A stretch of DNA of 64,000 bases. Origin: Corallococcus sp. EGB. GTDB taxonomy: Bacteria; Myxococcota; Myxococcia; Myxococcales; Myxococcaceae. The stretch covers positions 8,157,356 through 8,221,355 of the forward strand of contig NZ_CP079946.1 of NCBI RefSeq assembly GCF_019968905.1, in the 5' to 3' direction. Positions 4,912 through 26,476 of the stretch are shown one piece after another. The notes below the pieces were generated by a model. The model was not told where the DNA came from. It saw only the letters and a list, made by a program, of their open reading frames with translations, and searched no databases. A program made the position numbers and the translations under genes. Numbering within the stretch: position 1 is the first letter of the stretch; each line of letters begins with the position of its first letter.

Positions 4912-5160
4912 GTGTCGAACAGCGGGCGGAAGCCGGATGAGGGCGAGCGGTACCGGGCCATCCTTGAGACGTCGGCGCGGCTCCTCTTCGCCATCATGAA
5001 CTACGGGATGGACGTGTTCGAGGAGCAGATCCTCTCGCGCGTGCAAGGCATCGAAGACCCGGTGGAGCGGCTGTGCGCGTGCATGCGCCACAACCTCCTA
5101 GAAGCGCTACGTGGACTTCCCCGAGGAGGCCTTCGCGCAGGCCGAGCCGCCGCGCACCGT
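4912..5160 (+). pseudogene. Broken TetR regulator gene
   Basis: It starts like a TetR protein (MSNSGRKPDEGERYRAILET then SARLLF) with a good purine-rich ribosome site. The helix-turn-helix that should follow is missing: the frame jumps straight to AIMNYGMDVFEEQILSRVQG, typical of the TetR ligand-domain start. After about residue 62 a frameshift moves the continuation (YVDFPEEAFAQAE) to another frame, and then an IS91-like fragment begins. An internal deletion plus frameshift makes it non-functional. Confidence 0.65.
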
Positions 5161-5169
5161 GGTGGCCCC

Positions 5170-5225
5170 CCTTCACCGGGCACGGAGGAGGAGAACTCGG
5201 CCCAGGCTGCGACGGTGGAGTCGAG
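5170..5225 (+). repeat. Short IS91-like transposase fragment
   Basis: The stretch containing GAGGAGGAGAACTCGGCC and GCTGCGACGGTGGAGTCG closely matches the start of the IS91-like 3' fragments at 16460 and 26055. Only this short part is left. It lies immediately after the broken TetR gene. Confidence 0.5.
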
Positions 5226-5636: not shown

Positions 5637-5951
5637 CTACGGCGTAATCACTGACGTGTAGGCATCCCATTCGCTGAAGCCAGTCCCTGAGCCACCAACA
5701 TGGCCATTGTTCCTGACGACAATATCAAGCATCGAGTCGTACCCTCCTCCCGATCGACTCTGCCGGCGGGTCGCCATCTGGATGACCTCGACATACCGGG
5801 TCGCCAATCCATCCACGGCCTCGACGGCATGCACGGTGACATTGATTGAGCCTGTCGCCAATCGACTGTCAGGCCCAAGGACGTAGTAGTAGGTGCCGTC
5901 AAGCGGGATCCAGGCAACAAAATGATTCCTGAAACACTGAACAGTAGCCAT
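5637..5951 (-). CDS. Hypothetical protein, first gene of an AT-richer cassette
   Basis: 104 residues from ATG 5951, preceded by GAGGAGGGTGAG. The sequence is rich in short beta-type segments and small polar residues (VAWIPLDGTYYYVLGPDS, SINVTVHAVEAVD, YDSMLDIVVRNNGHVGGSG). It has no cysteine pairs after Cys6 and no signal or membrane segment. A compact beta fold is likely, but the function is unknown. It is followed by the 77-aa gene. The pair sits between a broken TetR gene and the IS66-interrupted M16 remnant, in atypically AT-rich DNA. Confidence 0.65.
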   Translation of the reverse strand: MATVQCFRNHFVAWIPLDGTYYYVLGPDSRLATGSINVTVHAVEAVDGLATRYVEVIQMATRRQSRSGGGYDSMLDIVVRNNGHVGGSGTGFSEWDAYTSVITP

Positions 5952-6529
5952 CTCACCCTCCTCAAACCAGGCAAAGACATCCCGCCTTGCCGTTCCGGGA
6001 GCCACTGCGTGCCAATTGGGACGGAATGGATTGGCACCCAGCGACCGAAACAACAATAGACAATCCACACCCGGAAAAACAGGGACGCCCTTCGGCTGTA
6101 CTCTACACCTCAAATTCAAAACCTGTCGGGGACAGCCAGCTTTTCCCAATCAGTCCTGCCTATGGGGTTGAGCGGATAGGATGCGCTTCAGGCGGGCCTG
6201 CTCTCCTATGGAGACGCCGAAACAGGAGAAGGCGAGGCGTCCGACAGGGAGGAAATGAGGGAGCCGCGATACCCGTCACGTCGCTACACGAACGCGTTCG
6301 AGGCCAGGTAGAGCGTCTGATGCTGGGAGAAGCGGATGACAACGGCCCGGGTGGTCAGGGCGCTGGACTCGCCGCTGTCGTCGTTGAGGCCACAGGTGGC
6401 GCAGGTGTACCCGGGCGGCGAAGCCCTGATGGCGCAAGGCCGCGTTGCTCCTGGAGCAGGACCGGGGGACGTGGATCTGGCGGAGGTGGAGTCCATCATC
6501 CTGAACAACCTGCCGGCCGACTGGGTGGG
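5952..6529. other. Gap with gene debris upstream of IS66
   Basis: No intact gene is supported. Positions 5952-6170 keep the AT-richer composition of the cassette and should contain its promoter. On the minus strand 6284-6450, a C-terminal-looking stretch (TRAVVIRFSQHQTLYLASNA, stop at 6284) may be the end of a broken gene. From about 6460 the plus strand carries the M16 fragment described separately. Confidence 0.4.
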
Positions 6530-6599
6530 GTAACCGTCCGGCCAACGACGTGCCGTGAGGGATTGCCGGGGTAGCGGGGCGCGGCGGACGCTGCTGGGC

Positions 6600-6911
6600 A
6601 TGGCGAAGCAGGTGGAGAAGCCGGAGTGGGCGCGCATCGCGGAGGCCTTTGAGGCGAGCGGGCAGACGCAGCGGGAGTTCGCGTTGGCGCACGGCATGCG
6701 GCTGAGCACGTTGCAGTCGTGGGTGTACCGGCATCGGCGGTCCGCTCCATCGCGAGCGGAAGCCGTGCGGCTGTTGCCGGTGCGAGTGGCGAGCGCCCCC
6801 GCGGCGCCGGAGTCCCTGGTGGTGGTGGCCACGAGCGGAGCGCGGGTGCGATTCGCGGTAGGTACCGACGTCGGTTACGTGGCCCGGCTCGTCGCCGCGT
6901 TGGGGCGCTGA
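6600..6911 (+). CDS. tnpA: IS66 accessory protein TnpA-like
   Basis: 103 residues with an N-terminal helix-turn-helix (WARIAEAFEASGQTQREFAL then STLQSWVYRHR), characteristic of the first IS66 gene. It is required with TnpB for transposition of this family and probably binds the element ends. ATG 6600 starts the HTH directly; the upstream in-frame codons belong to the terminal region. Its stop codon is 4 bp before the tnpB ATG. Confidence 0.9.
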   Translation: MAKQVEKPEWARIAEAFEASGQTQREFALAHGMRLSTLQSWVYRHRRSAPSRAEAVRLLPVRVASAPAAPESLVVVATSGARVRFAVGTDVGYVARLVAALGR

Positions 6912-6915
6912 AGTG

Positions 6916-7281
6916 ATGTTCGCCCTGCCTGCGTCGGTGCGCGTGGTGCTGGCGATGGAGCCGGTGGACATGCGCAAGTCGATTGACGGCCTCATGGCGC
7001 TGGTGCGCACGGCATGGGGCGAGGACGTCTACTCGGGGCACCTCTTCGCCTTCGTCTCCAGGCGGGGCGACCGCATCAAGGTACTGACGTGGAGCCGGGG
7101 CGGCTTCGTGCTGCTGTACAAGCGGCTGGAGACGGGCCGCTTCCGGCTGCCGCCGGTGGACGCGGGCGCGCAGGCGGTGACGCTGGACGCCACGCAGTTG
7201 GCCATGCTGCTGGACGGCATCGACGTGGCCCAGGTGAGGCGCCAGCCCGCCTGGACGCCTCCCGGGCGTCCGGGCACCTGA
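6916..7281 (+). CDS. tnpB: IS66 family accessory protein TnpB
   Basis: 121 residues, the usual size of IS66 Orf2. It has the family signature near the N-terminus (VRVVLAMEPVDMRKSIDGL) and YKRLETGRFRLP in the centre. The start is ATG 6916 (MFALPASVRVV); a GTG lies one codon before. The exact biochemical role in transposition is unknown for the family. Confidence 0.93.
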   Translation: MFALPASVRVVLAMEPVDMRKSIDGLMALVRTAWGEDVYSGHLFAFVSRRGDRIKVLTWSRGGFVLLYKRLETGRFRLPPVDAGAQAVTLDATQLAMLLDGIDVAQVRRQPAWTPPGRPGT

Positions 7282-7327
7282 CGTGCCCGGCCCGGGACAC
7301 GGCGCGGCGGCGGGGTGTTGAAGCCCG

Positions 7328-8827
7328 GTGCCCCGTGAGCTTCCCCAAGACCACTTCTGCCCCTGGCGCGAAGAGGCCGAAGAGCTCAAGGAGCGCCTGA
7401 CGTCGCTGGAGGCGAAGATGGCGGCGCTGGAGCGTCACGTCTTCGGCAGGAGGACGGAGAAGCTGCCGACGGTGGCCGCCGAGTTGCGTGGAGCCACGGA
7501 CTCGACGGCGGCCCAGGCCGAGGCCGCGAAAGAGAAGCGGCAAGAGAGAGCCGCCCGCAAGGCCGAGGGGGCCCCGGCGCGGGAGATTCGCCACGCGGTG
7601 CCGGCCGAGGAGCGCCACTGCCCGGCGTGCGGCAGCGAGGACTTGAGGCCCCTGGGCAAGGGCAAAACCTCGGTGGTGTACGAGTACGTGCCCGCCCGCT
7701 TCGAGAAGCAGGTGCACGTGCAGGAGGTGCTGGCGTGCGCGTGCGGCCGGGGCGTCGTCACCGCCCCGCCTCCGGCCCGGGTGGTGGACAGGGGCGAGTA
7801 CGGCCCGGGCTTCCTCTCCCACGTGGTGACGTCCAAGTGCGCGGACGCCATGCCCCTGCACCGGCTGGCCCAGCGGGTGGAGAGAGGCGGCGTGCCCATG
7901 AGTCGCAGCACGCTGACGGACCTCTTCCACCAGGCCGCCTCGGTGCTGCTTCCTCTTTCGCAGCACCTCCTGCAGTGCATTGCGTCCGCGGACGTGGTGT
8001 GGGCCGACGAGACGCCCATGCGCGTGCTGGACGTGAAGAAGACACGCCAGGGCTACCTCTGGACCTTCCTCACCCAGACGCCCACGGGCGAGTGGCTCAT
8101 CGGCTACCGCTTCAGCCTCGGCCGGGCCAGCACGACGCCCGAGGACGTGCTGGGCGGCACCCGGGGCGCCCTCGTCGTGGATGCCTATACCGGCTACAAC
8201 GCGGTGACGCTGCCCGAAGGGCGCGTCCGCGTCGGGTGTTGGGCGCATGTGCGGCGTCGCTTCTTCGACGCGCTGCCCACCGCGCCCGAGGCCCGCGAGG
8301 CCTTGGACTTCATTCTGGCCCTCTACCGGGTGGAGGCGCTGGCCCGCGACGCGGGCGTCGTGCGCACGGACGCGCACCAAGCGCTGCGCCAGCAGCAAAG
8401 TCTCCCCGTCCTCACTGCGCTGCGTGCGTGGATGGAATCCCAGGCCCCACGCCACCTGCCCAGGGGCCCCATGGGCCAGGCCCTTTCCTACGCGCTCAAG
8501 CAGTGGGACGCCCTGGCGCGTTTCGTCTCTGACGCGCGTCTGCCCTTGGACAACAACCGCTCCGAGGCGGCGCTGCGCAAGGCCGCCCTGGGCCGGAAGA
8601 ATTTCCTCTTCGTCGGCCACGAGGCCGCAGGGCAGAACCTCGCCGGCCTCTACGCTCTCGTCGCCACCTGCGAGGCCAACCAGGTCAATCCCGAGGCCTA
8701 CCTCGCGGATGTCCTGTTGCGCGTCCAGACGCACCCGTACTCGCGCATCGGTGAGTTGCTACCTCACGAGTGGATGCGGCGACGCGCCGCTGACCCGCCC
8801 GAGTCACCCCTCCAGCCCAGTCCCTGA
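7328..8827 (+). CDS. tnpC: IS66 family DDE transposase TnpC
   Basis: 499 residues, full length. Order: an N-terminal coiled coil (residues about 15-45, EELKERLTSLEAKMAALERH), a zinc-finger-like segment (CPACGSEDL with CACGRG later), then the catalytic core. Catalytic residues appear in WADETPMRVL, LVVDAYTGYNA and DNNRSEAALR (D, D, E). The start is GTG 7328. It cuts and joins DNA at the element ends. No disrupting mutation is seen, so the element may still be active. Confidence 0.95.
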   Translation: MPRELPQDHFCPWREEAEELKERLTSLEAKMAALERHVFGRRTEKLPTVAAELRGATDSTAAQAEAAKEKRQERAARKAEGAPAREIRHAVPAEERHCPACGSEDLRPLGKGKTSVVYEYVPARFEKQVHVQEVLACACGRGVVTAPPPARVVDRGEYGPGFLSHVVTSKCADAMPLHRLAQRVERGGVPMSRSTLTDLFHQAASVLLPLSQHLLQCIASADVVWADETPMRVLDVKKTRQGYLWTFLTQTPTGEWLIGYRFSLGRASTTPEDVLGGTRGALVVDAYTGYNAVTLPEGRVRVGCWAHVRRRFFDALPTAPEAREALDFILALYRVEALARDAGVVRTDAHQALRQQQSLPVLTALRAWMESQAPRHLPRGPMGQALSYALKQWDALARFVSDARLPLDNNRSEAALRKAALGRKNFLFVGHEAAGQNLAGLYALVATCEANQVNPEAYLADVLLRVQTHPYSRIGELLPHEWMRRRAADPPESPLQPSP

Positions 8828-9159
8828 CCAACTCGCTCCTCGCGGCGCTCGCTGAGCACGGTCGTGGTCCGTCTTCAATCCTTCCGGCACGTCACTGGCC
8901 GGACGGTTACTGGGTGGGCACTGCCGCCCCCGGTCCAGGCTCCGCGCCTGATCGAGCAGCCCACGCTGCCCGTCACCGGGCCGCCCGCGAAGAAGCTGCC
9001 GGTGTACTCGGCCGCCGTAGCGACACCGGAGCTGTACCTGTCGTGGGTGCTGCCACGAGGCTTCGATGAAGCCAGCGCCGTGCATGACTTCGTGAGGGCC
9101 GCCCTGAACACGGGGCCTGGTTCATGCGCAGGGGCGGCACAGCCTCTGCTCCGGCCCGG

Positions 9160-9252
9160 CGCACAGCCCGCGGGGCACCCTCCAGCGGCCCTTCTTGGCC
9201 CCTCTTCACCAGCCCGCCGCCCTCAACAGCGCTCCTATCCGTCCTATACTTG
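9160..9252 (+). repeat. IS91-like 3' terminus next to CTTG
   Basis: The stretch GCCCGCGGGGCACCCTCCAG onward matches the tail of the larger copy at 26285-26370. It ends in CAACAGCGCTCCTATCCGTC then CTATA, followed by CTTG at 9249-9252. Only the extreme end of the element remains. It joins the M16 fragment on its left and the tmRNA-like tail on its right. Confidence 0.6.
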
Positions 9253-9260
9253 AGCCGACG

Positions 9261-9296
9261 GCTTTCGGACGAGGGTTCGATTCCCTCCGCCTCCAC
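9261..9296 (+). other. ssrA: 3' end of a tmRNA gene: probable attachment-site relic
   Basis: The sequence has the T-arm GAGGG-TTCGATT-CCCTC flanked by CGGAC before and CGCCTCCAC after. This is the characteristic 3' terminus of bacterial tmRNA. The rest of ssrA (tag reading frame and 5' acceptor half) is absent upstream, where M16 and IS91-like debris lie instead. Integrases often use the ssrA 3' end as attB, leaving such a copy at the far end of an island. I see no integrase gene in the window. Confidence 0.65.
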
Positions 9297-9431
9297 AGTG
9301 CGAAGCCCGGCAATCTCAACAGGTTGCTGGACTTTTTCTTTGCCTGCGGTTCGTCATGTGCCCCCAGGGGCGAGGCTCTGATCAATGAGTGCGCCCCATG
9401 CCGTGACCGAAGAGCTTCGACGCACCCTGAT

Positions 9432-10040
9432 TCACGCCTCGGCTGATTGGGTCGGGCTCCAGAGTGAGCCGAGAAGATTGAGCACGGCTTGGGGCCGGGC
9501 GCGGTAGTAGCCCAGCCCCGAGCGCAGCGCATTCTGAAGCTCGGCCATCTCGTCGAAGAGGACATTGTGCGTGGCACGCTGGCGCAGAGGGCGCCACAGT
9601 CGCTCAATGGGCTGCAGTTGCGGACTGTAGGGTGGCAGCCGATACAGCGTCAGGTGTGGGTAGCGCCCCAATGCCCAGTCCACCGGACGTCCGCGATGCC
9701 AAGGCGCGTTGTCGATGACGAGAAGGACTTCGGGGTACGCGTCGGCAGGGTACGCCCGAGCGACGTTGAGCAAATGGTGGGCAAAGGCCACCTGCATCCG
9801 CCTCGTCTTCGACAGCCCATCCTTGCGGCGTTTCTGGGGGCGGCTGCCGTACAGTCGGCTCGTTACCGCGCCGGTGGTGACGTTGGCCGAGGCAAACGTG
9901 TGCACCACGTCCTTGCAATCGCGGGTTCCAATCACGGGGCGCTCGCCCTTGAGGCCCAAGGTGGCCGTCAGCGTGGGCACCATGGGAAACCGCGCCTCGT
10001 CCTGGCTCAGAAGGACCAGCTCGCCTGCCGCCGCCTGGCG
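9432..10040 (-). CDS. IS630 transposase, second frame (DDE catalytic domain)
   Basis: It is read after the -1 shift, not from its own start. The catalytic residues are in LLSQDEARFPMVPTL (D), LLVIDNAPWHRGRP (D) and YSPQLQPIERLWRPLR (E), matching the DDE order of the IS630/mariner group. The C-terminus ends in QSAEA within the left inverted repeat. Together with the first frame it makes a protein of about 370 residues, the family's usual length. An in-frame ATG at 9983 exists but would omit the first Asp. Confidence 0.8.
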   Translation of the reverse strand, partial: RQAAAGELVLLSQDEARFPMVPTLTATLGLKGERPVIGTRDCKDVVHTFASANVTTGAVTSRLYGSRPQKRRKDGLSKTRRMQVAFAHHLLNVARAYPADAYPEVLLVIDNAPWHRGRPVDWALGRYPHLTLYRLPPYSPQLQPIERLWRPLRQRATHNVLFDEMAELQNALRSGLGYYRARPQAVLNLLGSLWSPTQSAEA

Positions 10041-10543
10041 TTTTTTTCGCTCAACTCCTGCTGGGCTTGCTGCTGCCGAGCCGGGTCTGCGCGCAGGAAG
10101 CGGTAGGTAGGCCGGTAGAGCCGGACGCCATGGCGGCGGCAGAAGTCGCCCATGGCCGTCTCACGCACGCGAATGCCTGTCTGCTGGTGGAGAAAGTCGG
10201 CCAGGGCGACGTGCGTCCAGTTGGCGCGCTTGAGGCCGCATGCCCGAGGGCCCTGGCGAATCCAATCCAGCAGGGTGGGCGCCAGGTGCTCGGGAATGAG
10301 GGGCGTCTTGCCTGGCGCCCACTGAATCTTCAGCCCTTCCAGGCCGCCAGCGCGGTAGCGAGCCAGGAAGCGCTGCACATTGCGCGTCGTGGTGCCCAGG
10401 TCCTCGGCAATCTGCTGCTGGGGCCGGCTCCGGGCGGTCATCAGCACCGCCTGGCACCTGTCGCGCAATCGGCGGTCCTCCGTTGTTCGGAAGCACGCTT
10501 CCAGCTCGCTCCTCTGCTTCTCACTCAGCTCCAGCCGGCTCAT
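10007..10543 (-). CDS. IS630 transposase, first frame (DNA-binding part)
   Basis: 178 residues if read to its own stop. Two helix-turn-helix units: residues about 5-50 (SEKQRSELEACFRTTEDRR) and 55-110 (IAEDLGTTTRNVQRFLARYR). These are followed by a winged-helix-like part (GIRVRETAMGDFCRRHG). The conserved catalytic domain is not in this frame. Near the end it crosses GAA AAA AAC, a heptamer suited to -1 slippage, after which the reading continues in the frame that ends at 9432. Confidence 0.85.
   Translation of the reverse strand: MSRLELSEKQRSELEACFRTTEDRRLRDRCQAVLMTARSRPQQQIAEDLGTTTRNVQRFLARYRAGGLEGLKIQWAPGKTPLIPEHLAPTLLDWIRQGPRACGLKRANWTHVALADFLHQQTGIRVRETAMGDFCRRHGVRLYRPTYRFLRADPARQQQAQQELSEKNARRRQASWSF
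10040..10047 (-). promoter_or_regulatory. Programmed -1 frameshift site A AAA AAC
   Basis: On the coding strand the first transposase frame reads GAA AAA AAC GCC. A one-base backward slip at A AAA AAC gives AAA AAA CGC CAG, exactly the frame of the catalytic half. This heptamer is a classic -1 slippery sequence in insertion elements. Efficiency and any downstream stimulatory structure were not assessed. Confidence 0.75.
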
Positions 10544-10799
10544 GCAGGTTCAACCCGCGACCACTGACGGATTCATCCGAGCCGTGAATCAGGGGAGGCA
10601 CCTCTGTCCGCTTCCGGGACGCGACATCCCGGAGCCTCGCAGGCCCCGAGCGCCTGGATGCCGTGGTCCGTCATCTTCAGCGCCCCGCTGGGGCAACCAC
10701 CACCTGCACGTGCTGGGCAGGAGGGCGACGGGGACGACGGTGGAGGCGGCGCGCGGAGGTTTCGCGGGTGTCCTCCAGGAGGCCCGCGGACGCCGGCGA

Positions 10800-26019: not shown

Positions 26020-26369
26020 ATTTCTGCTCCCTCAAGCGGGGGGCGGAGCCGGGGCTGGAGGAGGAGAGCCCGGCCCTGGCTGCGACAGTGGAGTCGGCGA
26101 AGGAGCGCACGCCGCGATTGGATTGGGCGGGACTGCTGCGCCGGACGTTCGCGCTGGATGTCTTCGCCTGCTCTCGGTGTGGAGGCCGCACGAAGGTGCT
26201 GGCATACCTGACGGCCCCTGGTGGGGGACCTGCCATTCTGGAGCACCTGGCATTGCCCTCGCGGCCCGCGAAGCTGGCACCGCGCACTGCCCGCAGGGCA
26301 CCCGGCCGCAGCCATCCTCGGCCCCTCTTCCCCCCCGCAGCCCTCAACAGGGTTCCTATCCGTCCAATC
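26020..26369 (+). mobile_element. IS91-like element, 3' part with transposase C-terminus and terminal hairpin
   Basis: The longest of the copies. The plus strand encodes LDWAGLLRRTFALDVFACSR then CGGRTKVLAYLTAPGGGPAI and LEHLALPSRPAKLAP. This matches the C-terminal end of IS91-family transposases (LLRRVFDxD..C.RCGG..ILEHLGL..PAR). The element continues to CCCTCAACAGGG (small hairpin) and TTCCTATCCGTCCAAT, next to CTTG at 26370-26373. The 5' part with the HUH/Y2 catalytic residues is missing. Confidence 0.75.
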
Positions 26370-26476
26370 CTTGATCGAACCCGAACGAGGCGGAAGCTGA
26401 GCTCCCAGGTCTTCCACCGGCCCCCCATGTGTCTGATGCTCGGGTGTCCTCTCCTGCCCGGCTGGCGCGGGGCCTC

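Follow-up and report, generated by a model that had tools for sequence, protein, structure and literature searches.

An isolated copy of the ssrA 3' end in a Corallococcus chromosome, probably the remnant of a tyrosine-integrase junction

Does a piece of the tmRNA gene ssrA that stands by itself in a Corallococcus chromosome mark the border of an island, the trace of a lost one, or nothing more than a displaced copy of the gene's end? The piece lies in a stretch of 64,000 nucleotides (the window), positions C1:8157356-8221355 of a genome that consists of a single contig of 9,431,171 bases; the ten best-named relatives of one window protein come from Corallococcus or a Myxococcaceae bin (92-96% identity). 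The first-pass annotation had recognized a T-arm and acceptor 3' strand at 9261-9296 with the gene body absent, which the tmRNA covariance model bears out (25.2 bits, E 9.8e-8). That stretch is real, and the identity to ssrA is longer: window positions 9252-9296 on the plus strand equal the last 45 nt of the genome's own ssrA (45/45 nt), and extension by one base on either side breaks the identity. The protein reading RRRESNPRPKA, which had been noted on the flanking strand, was found as well, since the antisense strand of the fragment reads ...LWRRRESNPRPKAVGS (frame 1). ARAGORN reported no tmRNA in the window, and at the Rfam gathering score the sole match in the window was a tRNA, with the tmRNA fragment below that score. 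The match is not a chance one: searched for with up to 3 mismatches, the 22-nt core of the sequence was found at one place in the window as compared to 0 times in 100 shuffles.

The sole complete ssrA gene was located at C1:7144138-7144501 on the minus strand; it is intact, encodes the tag ANDNVELALAA, and lies 1.02 Mb from the window copy on the opposite strand. A different 3' sequence in this gene would have spoken against the proposal of an attachment site, and the two 3' ends are identical over the 45 nt. With up to 3 mismatches allowed, the last 30 nt of ssrA occur at 2 places in the 9.43 Mb genome, which are ssrA and the window copy, and a genome search with the 22-nt core gave the same two copies only. 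A second core (22 nt, up to 3 mismatches) was not found in the window, nor were relatives of two integrase queries (tblastn, E 0.05). With no integrase relative and no second core, and with ssrA 1.02 Mb distant and oppositely oriented, the copy does not bound any island today; a live island in the window was rejected for the absence of both a second core and an integrase relative. The earlier proposal of a probable attachment-site remnant is supported in the sense that the full ssrA elsewhere shares the 3' end and that a complete island is no longer present.

The sequence to the right of the copy is not random. We read positions 9297-9367 (minus strand) as the putative terminator and stop region of a tyrosine-integrase gene, with a hairpin terminator, a stop and the last codons. 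A relic of such an element should have an integrase-side flank next to its core, and the window flank matches integrase-type flanks at up to 59/69 nt (score 41.5), as compared to a best score of 10.5 for 1,998 random window 75-mers taken outside the locus. The reading frames agree, with the stop and a few residues that are also present in loci L240 and L068 of related genomes. The assignment to an integrase rests on DNA similarity because the remnant is too short for tblastn, by which 9297-9367 was not detected with integrases as queries. The similarity ends at 9367, and 58 nt further on begins an IS630-type element with split reading frames (9426-10593, minus strand).

In relatives, the corresponding arrangement is found in complete form. 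In L240, L250, L065 and L071 a tyrosine-integrase gene of about 410 amino acids stands just behind the core and reads towards it, and more cases were found by tblastn. Such genes read towards ssrA or ssrA fragments and end about 20-110 bp from the core; both representatives tested matched Pfam Phage_integrase (2/2). Among phage records, the best-ranked match to the integrase had 28.9% identity. The arrangement was counted in 63 non-ssrA fragments and in 38 full ssrA ends; the window copy was not included, and copies with identical flanks had been dropped beforehand. An antisense integrase C-terminus within 220 bp to the right was present in 23 of the 63 fragments and in 9 of the 38 full ssrA ends, and a sense-oriented one within 3 kb in none of the 63 fragments. 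Split by how the fragments had been selected, the figures are 4/21 (pattern-led), 2/17 (covariance-model-led), 7/13 (likeness to the window) and 10/12 (integrase-led, including L288, which came from the covariance-model list), the last two selections being ones that favour integrases. Linkage to an integrase is not general, because no integrase could be found next to the core in 40 of the 63 fragments; these may be far ends or decayed. C-terminal stubs beside the core were found in L251, L270, L239 and L259, which together with L252 give a decay series from an integrase to a C-terminal stub. The genome's own ssrA also has an integrase stub behind it, which belongs to a second subtype. Two recurrent, partly palindromic sequences occur just left of many ssrA-type cores (one in L242, L081, L057, L274 and L283, the other in L258, L063 and L069); they may be the right-end arms of elements.

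The most probable reading, to which we give a probability of about 0.78, is that the fragment represents what is left of an attL-type (integrase-side) junction, formed by a tyrosine-integrase element with the ssrA 3' end as its attachment site, after loss of the integrase and the partner site. In the intact relatives the ssrA 3' end, as core, is followed by a hairpin terminator and then by the integrase gene, which reads back to the core. Of these the window has kept the core and terminator and no more than the final codons of the integrase, the partner core being gone. Because the flank past the acceptor end is of the integrase type, with terminator and stop, the whole element would once have lain to the right of the fragment, and its integrase would have been removed by a deletion near the IS630 element. 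Of the earlier view that an island could extend to the left or right, the rightward option is thus favoured, while no island is left for the copy to bound. Hairpins behind many cores suggest that elements may come with a terminator of their own and so leave ssrA with one. Decay would then remove the integrase and leave a core with a C-terminal stub, and the window copy would stand at the end of that series.

The distance of 1.02 Mb from ssrA could have arisen in two ways: the element integrated at a site other than ssrA, or part of an ssrA::element junction reached its present place by being copied or moved. Ectopic integration is a real possibility for the window copy. The second way is favoured because the identity to ssrA covers 45 nt, while in most ectopic cores the match is only about 26 nt long. 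In 62 of 64 non-ssrA rows, the 26 nt left of the T-arm agree with ssrA at no more than 14 positions; the exceptions are L058 (25/26) and the window copy (20/26, ending sharply at a repeat). The window copy hence resembles a fragment of a real ssrA::element junction more than it does a primary ectopic insertion. Ectopic integration at the very end of the interspersed repeat described below was also considered and is not supported, given an identity of 45 nt and not about 26.

An origin without any element, in which the 3' end of an ordinary ssrA together with its native terminator would have been duplicated into an accumulation of accessory DNA debris, is unlikely. The 45-nt identity, which exceeds that of most ectopic cores, fits such a duplication, as do the mosaic surroundings: between 1 and 13 kb the window is largely made of pieces whose counterparts in congeners lie at different places. 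In genome G017 there is indeed a longer ssrA pseudogene piece, which retains some of the RNA body together with the 3' end (L058 4031-4167). Corallococcus ssrA with its own flank free of integrase is 85-89% identical to window positions 9252-9342, a figure that includes the 45 identical nt. However, among the 25 best matches to 9299-9367 there are no full Corallococcus ssrA flanks, whereas an integrase C-terminus adjoins the core in at least 16, a count that is biased since the flanks compared were partly picked for their likeness to the window.

Very improbable is a large inversion that split an ssrA-integrated island and carried the half with the displaced 3' fragment over 1 Mb while flipping it. 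The two copies do lie on opposite strands 1.02 Mb apart, and the terminators downstream of the own ssrA and of the fragment differ. Yet from about 36 kb on the DNA downstream of the own ssrA is collinear with four relatives (G016, G018, G022 and G028), so that the native downstream region is still at ssrA, and this synteny led us to reject an inversion of 1 Mb out of ssrA. A retrocopy made by reverse transcription of the tmRNA 3' end, for which one could cite that the RNA 3' end alone is present and that its left neighbour is a repeat with 5'-truncated copies, was rejected as next to impossible because the copy continues into a terminator and integrase-type DNA and has no added CCA.

On the left side of the fragment, positions 9130-9251 (plus strand) are, by comparison of copies, the 5'-truncated right end of an interspersed repeat of about 0.5 kb, an unrelated neighbour of the core. 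The right end of this repeat is fixed, and different sequence follows other copies. The fragment's left boundary coincides with the end of this other repeat, so that nothing of the original left flank remains. The repeat ends sharply in ..CCTATCCGTCCTATACTT, its copies being cut at differing left points; besides 9130-9251 it is found at 26026-26374, in related form near 32.4 and 40.4 kb, and in L253-L257. In the loci scanned it had no match among Rfam families. An empty-site search showed that genome G016 shares a gene on the left and the repeat end and has different DNA to the right, for most of which no match was found in the genome studied here. Further left, a chromosomal gene relic (6465-9110, plus strand) consists of 6465-6529 and 8911-9110, which match L056 at 4944-5008 and 5001-5202, and is split by an IS66 element at 6530-8910. 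The 8-bp overlap of the L056 matches corresponds to the duplication TGGGTGGG at both IS66 ends; the IS66 element entered the older relic in an event of its own, which left a clean 8-bp target duplication. The suggestion that IS elements on both sides fit island borders is therefore not supported: the IS66 element has its own target duplication, the left neighbour is an unrelated repeat, and the IS630 element stands 58 nt off the stub.

As a relic the scar is of a known kind and ordinary in itself, left by a type of mobile element that is widespread among soil bacteria related to this one. In the part of the Islander work available (PMC4383910), and by general knowledge of tyrosine integrases, the attP of an island includes the target gene's 3' end; on integration the gene is made whole again, and a fragment of it remains at the other end of the island. 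Islands at tRNA and tmRNA genes, as described in that part (PMC4383910), are alike in their border of a 3' tDNA fragment, the tyrosine integrase, a core on the T-stem side and ssrA as a favoured target, and the fragment is identical to its cognate gene here as well (45/45 nt). Unlike these islands (PMC4383910, same part), the window holds a relic without island, integrase or paired ssrA within 200 kb. A complete tDNA at 2-200 kb in the same orientation is not found, ssrA being 1.02 Mb off on the opposite strand, and in place of an integrase gene inside there is a stub only, recognized by DNA likeness. Myxococcus phage Mx8 (PMC6070905, in the portion available; AF396866) likewise has the integrase 3' end facing the tDNA 3' end. 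In its record AF396866 the tRNA-like 3' end lies antisense inside int, whereas the core here lies behind the integrase stop: in the integrated forms compared, the integrase coding sequence of the relatives ends about 20-110 bp before the core and does not enclose it. The Mx8 integrase shows only marginal similarity to that of the relatives (25% over 116 amino acids, E 0.002) and was rejected as close kin. Partial tDNA as a trace of integration, as in the window, is also described in the accessible text of PMC9897764; the example given there is paired with a complete gene across a 21-kb island, while the window fragment is unpaired.

What makes the scar worth following is that it leads to a myxobacterial integrase family found at ssrA, tRNA-Leu and tRNA-Asp genes and at ssrA-type cores away from tRNA genes, which allows tests of relaxed site-specific target choice and of island spread within one chromosome. 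The genome studied here has one strong relative of this integrase, an intact gene for 409 amino acids (L286, C1:1740049-1741227) that adjoins, from behind, a tRNA-Leu(cag) gene. A census of the 22-nt core (at most 1 mismatch, ssrA included) in 20 complete genomes, all of which have a single tmRNA above the cut-off, gave 1-33 copies per genome, and a control with the reversed pattern gave 0 in 20/20. One copy was found in G059, two in each of G000, G018, G028, G062, G069, G071 and G072, four in G034 and G060, five in G077, six in G063, 10 in G068, 14 in G035, 19 in G037, 21 in G002, 25 in G033, 28 in G006 and 33 in both G003 and G007. Full position lists were made for G002, G003, G006, G007 and G033 (140 copies), where 122 of the 135 non-ssrA copies lie more than 200 kb from ssrA. 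Neighbouring cores within 30.5 kb, a limit chosen with a 30.3-kb pair in view, are on the same strand in 37 cases and on opposite strands in 5 (binomial p 4e-7); such an excess is as expected of direct repeats that bound islands.

Cores also occur away from tRNA genes. In 17 loci scanned with ARAGORN, of which 16 have a core, neither a tRNA nor a tmRNA was detected. In L079 and L311-L319 the DNA behind one conserved gene varies among Corallococcus genomes, two of which carry ssrA-type cores there, and the site appears to be a hotspot of insertion away from tRNA genes. The gene to the left of the L079 core, which from reading alone we take to be UdgX-like, is followed by a core in G028 and G016 and by none in seven other readable congeners (in G021 over 56 nt only); the right flanks differ in this empty-site comparison. 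The gene left of the L240 core in G003, presumably ahcY as read from its last residues, has other DNA after its stop in G002, G004, G005 and G007, with no crossover readable, and the right flank of the L240 island had no match in the empty-site search of relatives. We consider it evenly balanced whether, in several large-genome relatives, the ssrA 3' end serves as a genome-wide dispersed attachment site, such that integrases using ssrA or tRNA ends also insert islands behind protein genes, which would give up to 33 cores per genome, often as direct-repeat pairs, with the window copy as a late remnant of that process. Fragments of tmRNA in these genomes should hence not be read without further evidence as borders of islands at ssrA. 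The dispersal in G002, G003, G006, G007, G033, G035 and G037 is the less expected part and merits study; a literature search, whose scope fell short of most subscription journals, found no report of dispersed ssrA ends in myxobacteria. Cores may also stand close together, as in L065, where a full ssrA at 5643 is followed by two more cores at 8304 and 10130 (spacing 2.7 and 1.8 kb), forming very small tandem units with an intact integrase behind the last core only.
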